This document shows, piece after piece, positions 16,467 through 21,198 of a stretch of DNA of 64,000 bases. Position numbers and translations under genes: made by a program. Source of the stretch: Bacteroidota bacterium (GTDB lineage Bacteria; Bacteroidota; Bacteroidia; Flavobacteriales_D; Crocinitomicaceae); assembly GCA_024280295.1 (NCBI GenBank), contig JAJRQK010000005.1, positions 1 to 64,000 on the forward strand. The letters run 5' to 3'. Numbering within the stretch: the first letter of the stretch is position 1; every line of letters begins with the position of its first letter. The notes beneath the pieces are model-generated. The model saw only the letters and a program-made list of their open reading frames with translations, was not told the origin of the DNA and made no database searches.

Positions 16467-18446
16467 ATGCTAAGACAAATTTCACTTCTAACGATTTTCG
16501 TTATTATTGGCTTTCAGAGCTTTGGACAGTTCTATATTGACTTTCCAGAAGTTAAGAGATATGAAAATAAGTTGCATCGACTCGATAATTTCTTGAAGAC
16601 GAATCCAACCAACCAAGAATCATATTTCTCAGAACTTTATCAACAAGCGAAATCAACGAAAAATGTTACCCTCGAAACGATTTTGGATATTCTAAAAGGT
16701 TCTGGGTTTTATTACTCTGGTCAATCTGATAGTGCTGTTATTTATTTCAATAAAGCAGTATCGTCCGCGGTGAAAATTCATGAGCCTAGTCTTCTTTCTA
16801 CAGCTAGAATTAGAAAAATTTTTATTATAAGTGATTGGACGAATTCTGACGTTGCTTACCGCTTAGTTAAGGATGAGTATGAAATTGCTAGAGAAAATAA
16901 AGATACCTTGAGTATGATGCTTGCGCTTAACGGAATGAGTCTGTTTAGCAAAGAAGATGAGAGTATATTGAAAGCTATCGAGCTTGCTCTTGAGAGTAAT
17001 AACGAATACGAATATGGATCACTGTTAAATAATCTTGCCGTTTCAAAGCTAGATCATGGAGATACTGAAGGTGCTCTTTCAGATTTAATCACCTGTCTTA
17101 GAATTGCTCAAGATGTAAATGATGTCCGATTAGAATTAACCGTATTGGAGAACTTGGGATACTACTACATGGAAGTAGATTCGTTGGATTTGGCAAAGAA
17201 AGAATTTCAAGAAACTTATGAAAAAGCTGCTAGGTTAAGGCATTATCAGATTGCATTAACATCAATAATAAATTTGAGTGGACTGTATAGAGAGTTAGAA
17301 GATTTTGCCAAAAGCGATTCACTTATTGATATTGGACTCCAATTGGCAAGGGATGGAAATTCACTTCATTTTGTCTCTTATATCTATTTGAATATGGCCG
17401 GTAATGAACTTAATAGTTCAAATTATACTAAAGTGAATCAATATTTGGATTCTGTTGAATACTACATGCAATACACTCAGAATTCAGGTGTTGGTGCTGG
17501 GATTTATCAGCTTAAGTACCAAATGGCTAAAAAACGTGGGAATGCTGATCAAGCTTTGGAATATTACATCCAGTTGATGGATTTTCAAGATTCTGTGGAT
17601 AATAATGGTCATGTTCAGATGATAACTGAATTACAATTAAAATATGACGTTGATCAGCAAGAGAAGCAGAGAGAAAATGACAAGCGATTGTACGAAGATG
17701 AATTGGCTAAAAGAGAGTTGAATAATTTAGTTCTCAAACAAAAAATCGCGATTGGACTTGTGCTGGTCGTCATTTTTTTAGCAGCTCTAATCATCTATTA
17801 TTTTCGCCATAAACATAAGAAACAATCTGAATTTAGTCTAGCTTTAGTAAACAAACTAGAAGAGGAACGTGGTAGGATTGCACGCGACTTACATGATGGA
17901 TTGGGACAAAGTTTAATCATATTAAAAAACAAATTTAATAACCTTGGCATGAATGAGAATTCAGAGGTTAGTTCGGTTGATAAAGGATTCTCAGATACGA
18001 TAGAAGAAGTTCGGAGTATTTCCAGAACACTTATTCCTCCTGAATTGAGACGGTTGGGCTTGAAGAAGTCCTTGCTCAAGATGCTGAAAGATATCGAAAA
18101 TACTACAGGTACAATTGTGTCATCTGAGCTTGATGATTTGGAGGATCTTAAGTTATCACAACCTCAAGAAATCAGAATCTACCGCATCATTCAAGAGTTG
18201 ATAAATAATACGCTCAAACACGCCAAAGCAAGTTCTCTTCGTGTTGAGTTAGAGAAGTTTTCGAATCATTTTACCATTGTTTATCAAGATAACGGTGTTG
18301 GAATACAATCGGACCGAGTGGATGTTAAATCGGACTCTATTGGTTTGAAAAGTATTGAACAACGATTGAAAATATTAAATGGCTCCATAAAGTATGATAA
18401 ACCGGTTAAAGGTTTTCGTGCCGTAATTAAAATAAAAATTAACTAG
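16467..18446 (+). CDS. TPR-containing sensor histidine kinase (HisKA_3 / NarL-type)
   Basis: TPR-like N-terminal region, TM 'IGLVLVVIFLAALIIYYF', 'EERGRIARDLHDGLGQSLIILKN', HATPase 'RIIQELINNTLKHAKA'. Confidence 0.92.
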   Translation: MLRQISLLTIFVIIGFQSFGQFYIDFPEVKRYENKLHRLDNFLKTNPTNQESYFSELYQQAKSTKNVTLETILDILKGSGFYYSGQSDSAVIYFNKAVSSAVKIHEPSLLSTARIRKIFIISDWTNSDVAYRLVKDEYEIARENKDTLSMMLALNGMSLFSKEDESILKAIELALESNNEYEYGSLLNNLAVSKLDHGDTEGALSDLITCLRIAQDVNDVRLELTVLENLGYYYMEVDSLDLAKKEFQETYEKAARLRHYQIALTSIINLSGLYRELEDFAKSDSLIDIGLQLARDGNSLHFVSYIYLNMAGNELNSSNYTKVNQYLDSVEYYMQYTQNSGVGAGIYQLKYQMAKKRGNADQALEYYIQLMDFQDSVDNNGHVQMITELQLKYDVDQQEKQRENDKRLYEDELAKRELNNLVLKQKIAIGLVLVVIFLAALIIYYFRHKHKKQSEFSLALVNKLEEERGRIARDLHDGLGQSLIILKNKFNNLGMNENSEVSSVDKGFSDTIEEVRSISRTLIPPELRRLGLKKSLLKMLKDIENTTGTIVSSELDDLEDLKLSQPQEIRIYRIIQELINNTLKHAKASSLRVELEKFSNHFTIVYQDNGVGIQSDRVDVKSDSIGLKSIEQRLKILNGSIKYDKPVKGFRAVIKIKIN

Positions 18447-18449
18447 ACT

Positions 18450-19118
18450 ATGCGCATATTGTTAGCTGATGATCATCCCATTTTTCGCAAAGGGCTTAAG
18501 GCTGTTATTGAGAATGAATATGAGTACTGCGTAGTAGTTGAAGTAAACAATGGTGATGACGCAATTAAAGAGCTGAAGTACGACTCTTTTGCAATTTGCA
18601 TTCTTGACATTGACATGCCAGGAAGCTCAGGAATAGAAGTGCTTTATTACATTAAAGAGAACTCCGTGAATGTGAAGCCAATTATGCTTACAATGCATAA
18701 AGATGAACTCTTCTTTAACGAAGCTTTTGACAATGGAGCAATCGGATACCTTTTAAAGGAAGATTCTAGTATTGAATTATTCGACTGTATTTCAAATATT
18801 CTCGCTGGAAGTTCATTTGTAAGTGAGAAATTGATTCCATTCGTACAAAATCGGAAGTCATTCACATCAAAATTAAGTGAATTCTATCGCCTTGTTGACT
18901 CTTTGACAAATGCTGAGTTTAATACACTAAGGCTGGTTGCAAAGAACAAAACATCTAAGGAAATTTCAGAGTTATTATTTGTCACTGTGAAATCCGTAGA
19001 GAACTATCGCACGAGAATCTGTAAAAAACTTGATATTACTGGAGGAAGCAATACGCTTTATAAATGGTGTGTTGAAAATAAAGTATTGATTGATAGGAAG
19101 GAAGCGAGAATGAGTTAA
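18450..19118 (+). CDS. LuxR-family response regulator
   Basis: Receiver 'MRILLADDHPIFRKGLKAVIE...ILDIDMPGSSGIEVL'; HTH 'EFNTLRLVAKNKTSKEISELLFVTVKSVENYRTRICKKL'. Confidence 0.94.
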   Translation: MRILLADDHPIFRKGLKAVIENEYEYCVVVEVNNGDDAIKELKYDSFAICILDIDMPGSSGIEVLYYIKENSVNVKPIMLTMHKDELFFNEAFDNGAIGYLLKEDSSIELFDCISNILAGSSFVSEKLIPFVQNRKSFTSKLSEFYRLVDSLTNAEFNTLRLVAKNKTSKEISELLFVTVKSVENYRTRICKKLDITGGSNTLYKWCVENKVLIDRKEARMS

Positions 19119-19126
19119 GTTTATGG

Positions 19127-19137
19127 TAGCGTTGGCA
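19127..19137 (+). repeat. Left direct repeat TAGCGTTGGCA of cassette-like unit
   Basis: Identical 11-mer recurs at 19924-19934. Confidence 0.7.
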
Positions 19138-19928
19138 ACAATAAAAAAAACTGAACTGGAAACTTGAAATTACAATACAAAAAAACAAGATGGACTATTT
19201 TGAACAAGAAAGTGAAAGGTTGAAATTTCGAAAATTAACAACAAAGGATATTTCAAGTTGGACAGAATTCTTTGATGATAATGACAGACTTCACTTTTTA
19301 GGAATGGACTTATCAAAGAATAAACAAGAACTTGCAACTGAATGGATAAACGCACAACTTACTCGCTATGAAAAACAAGGGTTTGGTCATTTAGCAGTTG
19401 AAATTAAAGAAACTAATGAATTCATAGGAATGGGTGGAATTCTACCCCGAATATTAAAAGACAAAAATGAATATGAAATTGCATATTCTTTAAAGCCAAA
19501 ATATTGGGGAAAAGGATTTGGAACTGAAATTGCAAGGCAAATAAAGGAATTTGGGTTGAAAAATATAGAAACAGACAGGTTCATCTCAATAATTGACACT
19601 CGAAATATCCAATCTGCTAACGTTGCTAAAAAGAATGGAATGAAAGTGTTATTTGAAACGGAATATTTAGAAATGGATGTAGATGTTTATGGTTATTCTC
19701 TGAATAAAACGGAACAATAAAAAAGCAGGAATTAAAAAATACTGTTGCCAACAATGGCTATAGTTAATACGGGTTTTGATGCTTAACCAAAAGTGGAGTG
19801 CCTTGAATTTAGTCCGCAAAATTTACAATTTTGCGTGATTATTAATTAAAGAAAAAATTGTAAATTTGGCTAAGTGCAAGACCGAAAGTTGAGTCCTTCG
19901 AAATCCCGTACTAACCATAGCCTTAGCG
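19131..19928 (+). mobile_element. Putative integron-cassette-like (CALIN-like) unit: one ORF plus a 3' attC-like imperfect palindrome
   Basis: Bounded by TAGCG|TTGGCA at both ends; a single promoterless-looking ORF starts 60 nt inside and is followed within ~25 nt by a long palindrome whose ends are TGCCAAC / GTTGGCA. Confidence 0.5.
19190..19720 (+). CDS. GNAT family N-acetyltransferase (RimJ/RimL-like)
   Basis: 'ESERLKFRKLTTKDISSWTEFFDD...EFIGMGGILPRI...YEIAYSLKPKYWGKGFGTEIARQIKEFGL...RNIQSANVAKKNGMKVLF'. Confidence 0.92.
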   Translation: MDYFEQESERLKFRKLTTKDISSWTEFFDDNDRLHFLGMDLSKNKQELATEWINAQLTRYEKQGFGHLAVEIKETNEFIGMGGILPRILKDKNEYEIAYSLKPKYWGKGFGTEIARQIKEFGLKNIETDRFISIIDTRNIQSANVAKKNGMKVLFETEYLEMDVDVYGYSLNKTEQ

Positions 19929-19936
19929 TTGGCATT
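19743..19936 (+). repeat. Long imperfect palindrome, attC-like
   Basis: TGCCAAC-AAT-GGCTATAGTTAATACGGG ... CCCGTACTAACCATAGCC-TTAGC-GTTGGCA; arms pair along most of ~85 nt; apical perfect hairpin CGCAAAATT-TAC-AATTTTGCG plus AATTTACAATTTT / AAAATTGTAAATT. Confidence 0.75.
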
Positions 19937-19955
19937 TATTAGAAAAAACGATAAA

Positions 19956-20195
19956 ATGAAGTCAATATCAATACCACTATTAATTCTTGCTACATCATTT
20001 TATTCTTACTCTCAAAGCCTTGAAATTAAGATAGCCTATATTATAAAAAAACACTATTAAAGAATCTTCAATTGTTGGAATTTCAATTGGGATAGTTCAC
20101 AAAGAACATAGTTTTACTAAAAACTAAGGAACTACAGATAGAGGATATATAGTATCAGTTTACACACTTAGCGGGATAGTGTCTAATTGACCAAA
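19956..20195 (+). pseudogene. Degenerate serine hydrolase / class C beta-lactamase-like fragment
   Basis: Signal-peptide-like MKSISIPLLILATSFYSYSQS, then in another frame 'IKESSIVGISIGIVHKEHSFTKN*GTTDRG', like the VGISIGIVxxGxxYTKxYG region of serine hydrolases; frameshift and stop. Confidence 0.4.
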
Positions 20196-20238
20196 ACATG
20201 GAACGACTTCTTAGTCTTGAACGAACTAAATCTTAGTG

Positions 20239-21198
20239 CTATTTAATTTTCACTTCAATTGTAACTGGGAAATGATCTGAATATCCTCCCAGATACTTTG
20301 CCCCACCATACGTTCTGTTTGGAACGATATTTCCACGGTATTCACCAAGTAGGAAGTCTGGGCTATGAATTTTCCCTGACTTTTTCTGAATCTTAATTCC
20401 TTTTTTCTTTAGAAATGATTTGCTCACCATAATATGATCCAACACTCCCCATTCTTGGCGGTAGTTATGTGAGCCACCAAATTTACCAGATTTCTCACTA
20501 ATCATTGGAACTAGAAGATCCGAAATCATTGATGGTGCAAGATTCGTTGGGTAGTCGTTTAAGTCACCCATGAATACAATTTTCACATCTTTATTGGCGG
20601 TTTGTTGTGCATTAATAAATTCTTTAGCAGCAATTGCGGCGACCATTCGTTTGGGTTCGCTTTCTGCCTGTCCTCCTCGTCGACTTGGCCAATGATTAAC
20701 CATTACAAGAATTATGTCGTCACCTCGAATAAATTTAGCCCAAATAATATCTCTCGAAGGTGTACTAGGTGCGGGCATTTCAAAACGAATCCTGCCTTTA
20801 TCAATCAACAAAAGAACTGTACTGTCGTATATCAGAGCATTGTCAATTCCTCTTGCATCAGCCGATTCAAAATGGACAATATTATGTGTGGTTTTTAGAT
20901 TGCCACGTGAAACAATGTCTTTTACGACTGCTTTATTTTCAATTTCACATAAGCCAATTATCAGAGGGCTACACAAACTATCCATGACTTCATTTATATG
21001 CGCGATTTTCTCGAAATAACGTTCAGAATTCCATTCCTTTTTCCCAGATGGCAGATATTCAGAATCTTCCTTGTTTGGTGTATCAAGCGTATCAAATAAA
21101 TTTTCAACATTGTAAAACGCAACTGTGCGATAGGTTTGAGCATTGAGGCCAATTGAAATAAGTAGAAAACTCAGTAATAGAATATATGCTTTATGCAT
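20239..21198 (-). CDS. Endonuclease/exonuclease/phosphatase family protein
   Basis: 'VAFYNVENLFDTLDTPNKEDSEYLPSGKKEWN...GLCEIENKAV...NHWPSRRGGQ...FMGDLNDYP...GGYSDHFPV'. Confidence 0.93.
   Translation of the reverse strand: MHKAYILLLSFLLISIGLNAQTYRTVAFYNVENLFDTLDTPNKEDSEYLPSGKKEWNSERYFEKIAHINEVMDSLCSPLIIGLCEIENKAVVKDIVSRGNLKTTHNIVHFESADARGIDNALIYDSTVLLLIDKGRIRFEMPAPSTPSRDIIWAKFIRGDDIILVMVNHWPSRRGGQAESEPKRMVAAIAAKEFINAQQTANKDVKIVFMGDLNDYPTNLAPSMISDLLVPMISEKSGKFGGSHNYRQEWGVLDHIMVSKSFLKKKGIKIQKKSGKIHSPDFLLGEYRGNIVPNRTYGGAKYLGGYSDHFPVTIEVKIK

Follow-up and report, generated by a model that had tools for sequence, protein, structure and literature searches.

A lone gene cassette in a Crocinitomicaceae genome and its probable membership of an integron-like system with a XerA-like recombinase

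The acetyltransferase gene and long palindrome that lie side by side in a 64,000-nucleotide stretch of a Bacteroidota genome (GenBank assembly GCA_024280295.1, contig JAJRQK010000005.1, positions 1 to 64,000; hereafter the window) are very probably a lone gene cassette of an integron-like Bacteroidota system with a XerA-like recombinase. Judged from its sequences, this system works like an integron, yet its recombinase would not pass as an IntI. We also consider it rather likely that XerA-like recombinases lacking the I2 insertion carry out integron-style capture through a folded single-stranded attC, as a second mechanistic solution or as an ancestral or derived state beside IntI, and that the system is widespread in Flavobacteriales and in at least one other family of the class.

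Results

Structure of the window cassette

The GNAT ORF and the attC-like palindrome make up a single cassette in the window, which opens at G^TT 19131 (Table 1). The initial annotation had claimed a repeat, TAGCGTTGGCA, at 19127 and 19924; both copies were present, with the GNAT ORF and the palindrome between them. The box layout that it described was also exact, with AAC at 19750, the spacer AAT, the two L arms, the spacer TTAGC and GTT at 19928. The heptamer repeat understates the match, because R'' (TGTTGCCAAC) is complementary to its own cassette start over 10 nt (19131–19140) and matches the sequence beyond the site over only 7 nt. In integrons, R'' is complementary to the start of its own cassette, and both ends meet in the circular cassette. 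The window cassette appears to follow this integron logic, and by analogy with integrons its cut position would be at G^TT.

Table 1. Features of the predicted cassette and adjoining sequence in the window.
Feature	Position	Strand	Basis or remark
Predicted cassette unit	19132..19928	+	797 nt if G^TT is cut at both sides
Cassette start / own R' box GTTGGCAACA	19131..19140	+	exact 10-nt complement of R''
Cargo gene, GNAT acetyltransferase, 176 aa	19190..19720	+	PF13302, 6.1e-25
attC-like folded site, R'' through GTT of the next unit	19743..19930	+	fold z and dispersed homologues
R'' box TGTTGCCAAC	19743..19752	+	complementary to cassette start
L'' arm GGCTATAGTTAATACGGG, after unpaired AAT	19756..19773	+	pairs with 19905–19922
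Inner AT-rich hairpin, variable terminal part of the site	19816..19870	+	inverted repeat I17, 94% complementary
L' arm CCCGTACTAACCATAGCC, before unpaired TTAGC	19905..19922	+	box layout and folds
Start of putative second, truncated cassette-like unit: GTTGGCATTT and short ORF	19928..20061	+	sequence

The R box had been said to depart from the integron consensus. GTTGGCA does lie outside RRRY, as do GTTGTxx and GTTATGC, and only the GTT of the R' consensus GTTRRRY is constant; this need not be an obstacle, because the bases beyond AAC/GTT are specific to each cassette. GTTGGCA by itself was not rare (10 occurrences in the window, 5.7 expected), and we take the signal to be the full architecture rather than this heptamer. 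Folded as single-stranded DNA, 201 nt gave fold z values of −5.0 (top strand) and −5.7 (bottom strand), and none of 200 shuffles folded equally well. The L'' arm has two top-strand A·C mismatches, which are G·T wobbles on the bottom strand. An Rfam search of 18900–20300 gave no credible match.

The cassette is followed by what may be a truncated second unit, with a ~34-codon signal-peptide-like ORF from 19957 and no attC after that ORF. Its start, GTTGGCATTT, is the complement of R'' (AAATGCCAAC) in another copy of the palindrome, on contig C10. The initial annotation had proposed either a CALIN-like cassette or a distinct recombination unit of folded ssDNA, and this was borne out: relatives have arrays of cassettes that obey the same rules, and the genome holds further copies of the palindrome. 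The window has one complete attC-like site plus the truncated unit and is not itself a CALIN as defined by the IntegronFinder 2 default (at least two attC sites without an integrase).

Genes for a TPR histidine kinase and a LuxR-type response regulator (16467–19118) end 13 nt ahead of the cassette. This pair is kept in five same-genus relatives (62–65% identity). The junction is not comparable across them, because neither a GNAT nor an exo/endonuclease gene was found within 1.5 kb past the pair; no empty site for the window cassette was found in that interval. The window's GNAT was not detected in the same-genus genomes listed but is present in other genera, one of which carries a homologue (70% nucleotide identity) within a cassette with an unrelated attC (L255).

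Cassette arrays in related genomes

Cassettes were sought in relatives with a detector that required GTT plus 6 nt, the complement of these bases with AAC after it no more than 4.5 kb away, inner arms, and GTT at the close. It returned 54 chained cassettes on the same strand, in 14 loci, whereas 20 first-order resamples of those sequences yielded none; in a chain, the end of each cassette coincides exactly with the beginning of the next. Because the sites are palindromic, the reverse strand is unfit as a control, and its reading offers no independent check on chaining. The complement to the cassette's own start measured 9–10 nt (101 cassettes) versus mostly 3–6 nt with the next cassette; a 9-nt minimum for the own complement is built into the detector, so that only chaining, the next-cassette comparison and the strand bias are independent of it, and the complement never exceeded 10 nt. 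Cassettes had a median length of 882 bp, and the longest ORF was sense in 92 of the 101 and antisense in 5. A canonical integron of the same phylum (L291) was also picked up.

The common format was GTT with 6–7 specific nt, an ORF, the complement of the start, AAC and a long palindrome. The sites have the attC boxes R''/L'' and L'/R' with an unpaired spacer, and R'' is complementary to the cassette's own start. Tandem cassettes, each with a terminal attC, were found in the genomes G038, G136 and G517, while the window holds only one cassette. Array sites (e.g. L130:15867–15924) fell into length classes of ~46–68, 114–126, 155–161 and 174–186 nt, the shortest being ~50–60-nt hairpins, near ordinary attC.

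Array cargo comprised lipoproteins, an esterase, a desaturase, a methyltransferase with a NOV_C protein, and a class D beta-lactamase. The beta-lactamase is encoded in G038 (L130:15943–16782; NF012161, 266.9 bits, cut-off 250), as is a cassette (L130:9905–11889) whose D12 adenine methyltransferase and NOV_C protein (putative nuclease) are probably a restriction-modification pair. Duplicated cassettes in L130 (788 bp, 100%) and L246 (92%), and a cassette common to two families (L194 and L244, 71%), support movement.

The recombinase and its platform

In the complete genome G038 the array lies directly behind a gene for a 381-aa tyrosine recombinase (L130). Arrays behind a recombinase were also seen in two further complete genomes, G136 and G517, and on contigs from G202, G311, G791 and G417, and some looser relatives (group B, e.g. 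L194, L241) likewise head arrays. The arrays are downstream of the recombinase gene and in the same orientation. Nine of the 10 array-bearing genomes from the genome scan had a related recombinase, and in G417 a canonical IntI coexists with a group-B array platform. The closest recombinases (E < 1e-140, ~30 loci among 245 sampled genomes of the order) number about one per genome; at most of these loci, and in most draft genomes, the contig ends within ~2 kb on the downstream side, which is expected of repeat arrays. A related recombinase on a Persicobacter plasmid (40% identity over 97%) was not accompanied by any chained array that the detector could find.

In family-A loci with a called first cassette, this cassette begins 38–50 nt past the recombinase stop. 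A palindrome of 20–32 bp, perfect or nearly so (e.g. GTGGATAAAGTGCACTAGTGCACTTTATCCAC), stands right after the stop, a few nt from the GTT of the first cassette, and was significant against shuffles in 25 of 33 cases. By position it corresponds to an attI next to an integrase gene, and it may function as one.

The initial annotation had described the window cassette as lacking an integrase and advised looking for a tyrosine recombinase elsewhere in the genome. None stands beside the cassette, but a tyrosine recombinase of the kind that heads the arrays, not an IntI, is encoded on another contig (C65:50029–51186). That contig stops 204 nt later, past GTTAGCATGC and an ATG, inside the first cassette behind the recombinase. 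Because the array is cut off there and the attI-like palindrome is weak (p = 0.28), family resemblance is the only link between this recombinase and the GNAT cassette.

Several of these loci (L133:5565–5939 on C65 of the window's genome, L130:6495–6884 and others) also encode a Cys-rich, Zn-ribbon-like protein of ~125 aa that has two CxxC-like pairs. Its gene is divergent in 26 of 35 family-A loci, mostly 75–130 nt upstream of the recombinase, and the protein, which matched nothing in Pfam, NCBIfam or PADLOC, is a possible partner or regulator of the recombinase. Recombinase genes with an in-frame stop were seen at G030:C8, G057:C16 and G792:C29 (G792 is Tenacibaculum dicentrarchi TDCHD05), and these platforms are probably dead. 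G214:C1 (L194) carries seven related recombinase copies, six of them near-identical forms of 300 aa, possibly a mobile element, and the seventh at the head of an array.

The best NCBIfam model for the protein of the window's genome was XerA (NF040815, 228.6 bits, cut-off 220; G038 protein, 217.5), and with the catalytic residues in place it is of XerA type. All six residues, R-K-H-R-H-Y, were present in 35 of 35 recombinases. The array-type recombinases tested scored 193–234 bits with the IntI model TIGR02249 (cut-off 265), which matched in two pieces. The distance from the catalytic K to HxxR was 64–66 residues in 35 of 35, compared with 106 in 21 of 21 IntI. That is, the IntI-specific insertion of ~42 residues (I2) is absent from array-type recombinases, and they lack the additional domain that marks an IntI-family integrase. 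The XerA-like family and IntI formed separate clades in a tree (support 100/99 and 100/100), in which long branches leave the deeper order unsure. The nearest solved structures were XerA (4a8e and 5hxy) and then IntI4 (2a3v), split in two; a predicted recombinase structure (pLDDT 82) matched XerA, IntI4 and XerH. The protein also carries a ~105-aa N-terminal extension, a candidate for taking the place of I2 in gripping the unpaired bases. A role at a single duplex dif in chromosome dimer resolution seems unlikely, because cassette arrays follow this gene and there are further Xer-like recombinase genes.

These data bear on whether the window cassette belongs instead to a canonical integron and was mobilised by an ordinary IntI, since lost or missed, with the XerA-like recombinase a bystander. 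The cassette rules (G^TT, R'' as the complement of its own start, bottom-strand bias) are indeed those of integrons, canonical IntI scored over the cut-off in 90 of 326 Bacteroidota genomes, and our detector recognised a canonical array. However, nearly all canonical IntI lay outside the window's class (a single case inside it among the matches listed), and none exceeded the cut-off in the window's genome or in 20 others that bear the palindrome. Members of the XerA-like family were found in Flavobacteriales and in at least one further family of the class, arrays begin directly behind their genes in many lineages, and the array of the canonical control (L291) is divergent from intI. We rejected the lost IntI on the lack of an above-cut-off IntI in this genome and on the position of the arrays, and consider it very improbable.

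Strand bias of the folded sites

The stems of the 101 sites contained 165 A·C and 10 G·T oppositions on the top strand, which places the wobbles on the bottom strand. In 91 of the 101 sites the fold of the bottom strand was the more stable (median 3.4 kcal/mol); the p-values for this bias count related sites as independent, and the bias is nearly universal across loci. It matches the use of the bottom strand by integrons, and the folded bottom strand would be the recombination substrate.

A different proposal is that the sites recombine as duplexes, in the manner of dif or pdif, and that the hairpins are incidental. The pdif (Xer) modules of Acinetobacter plasmids are gene modules possibly moved by a Xer-type enzyme; they have short duplex sites and are not known to have a dedicated adjacent recombinase, attI or hairpin attC. 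Our recombinase is nearest to XerA in sequence and fold, and the attI-like palindrome resembles a two-arm duplex site. Yet R'' and R' are separated by 50–190 nt and come together as a two-box site only in the folded strand, and wobbles and stability favour one strand, a bias that a duplex mechanism would not need. Box spacing and one-strand bias led us to reject this proposal, which we regard as very improbable.

Dispersed copies of the palindrome

The initial annotation had recommended a search for the palindrome elsewhere in the genome. Further copies were found at C10:33800 (88%) and C14:87720 (76%), together with a half copy at C1:18368. The half site (L004:1501–1563) comprises the first 62 model positions with another gene directly after, and resembles a disrupted cassette end. 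We scanned 84,980 genomes for a 24-base 3' pattern and obtained 22 loci, most of them in Flavobacteriaceae. They conserve the core AAC-AAT-GGCTATAG ... CCATAGCC-GAGAC-GTT, and the bases outside AAC/GTT vary by copy, as expected if such bases belong to the cassettes. With 2 mismatches allowed, a half-site pattern proved too loose for relatives, and an attC-start pattern gave no excess in the window's own genome (20 matches, 18 in the reversed control). Near-identical sites also occurred in MAG contigs labelled Lysobacterales, Thermus/Deinococcus, Parcubacteria and Desulfocapsa (L063, L064, L075, L076, L078), which would represent misbinned contigs or wide transfer.

That the palindrome is a dispersed MITE- or REP-like repeat flanking genes by chance, without cassette movement, would suit a long imperfect palindrome with several copies per genome, often at contig ends, but we rejected this as extremely improbable, because in 101 cases the bases bordering the repeat complement those at the far end of the adjacent gene unit and the units are chained head to tail, neither of which a self-moving repeat would predict, and because one GNAT family is found with unrelated palindromes.

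Discussion

The architecture, the arrays, the adjacency of the recombinase, the strand bias, the missing insertion and the catalytic residues can be read from the DNA itself, and they suggest how a cassette system with a XerA-like recombinase may operate. A platform would consist of the ~125-aa Cys-rich gene, usually divergent, a ~380-aa XerA-like recombinase, the attI-like palindrome with G^TT, and a co-oriented array. Cassettes would pass through circular intermediates, as in integrons, in which a cassette's own start pairs with R''. The bottom strand of the palindrome would fold into a hairpin whose paired R and L boxes flank an unpaired spacer. The recombinase, as the presumed enzyme of cassette movement, would then join the folded strand to attI or to another attC at G^TT. 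The GNAT cassette would have been placed at its present site away from the platform, or left behind there.

With IntI chromosomal integrons (class 1–3, the Vibrio superintegron; in Bacteroidota, Salinibacter ruber M1, PMC9024848) the system shares an attI or attI-like site by a tyrosine recombinase gene, arrays, G^TT, an R'' complementary to its own start, R and L boxes with an unpaired spacer, and bottom-strand bias. It differs in a XerA-like recombinase without I2 and with a ~105-aa N-terminal extension, in an array downstream of and co-oriented with the recombinase gene, in a palindromic putative attI, in an R complement never longer than 10 nt, and in the divergent Cys-rich partner gene. 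Like a CALIN or single attC, the window has a cassette without an adjacent integrase; here, however, there is one complete site of another sequence type and a candidate recombinase elsewhere in the genome. The XerA/XerH single-recombinase systems (PDB 5hxy, 4a8e, 5jjv) provide the best sequence and fold matches of the catalytic core, but they act at a ~28-bp duplex dif, whereas the sites here are long hairpins that accompany gene cassettes, and the protein carries an additional domain at its N terminus.

IntegronFinder 2 found one complete integron in Bacteroidetes proper, that of Salinibacter ruber M1 (PMC9024848). The I2 helix is described in PMC7790495, citing Messier and Roy (2001), as necessary for cassette capture and absent from other proteins, and single-strand cassette recombination as exclusive to IntI. 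We found no prior description of the present system in the open-access literature searched.

A cassette system without I2 suggests that there is a second way in which integron-style gene capture operates or came to evolve. A dedicated cassette platform whose recombinase lacks I2 makes the claim that I2 is necessary directly testable, and it could show how, or how often, integrons arose. The system would also account for a class of long palindromes and assembly breaks in Bacteroidota genomes. It would reveal a cassette pool overlooked by searches that require the IntI domain, whose cargo extends to a class D beta-lactamase and to a DNA methyltransferase accompanied by a putative nuclease.
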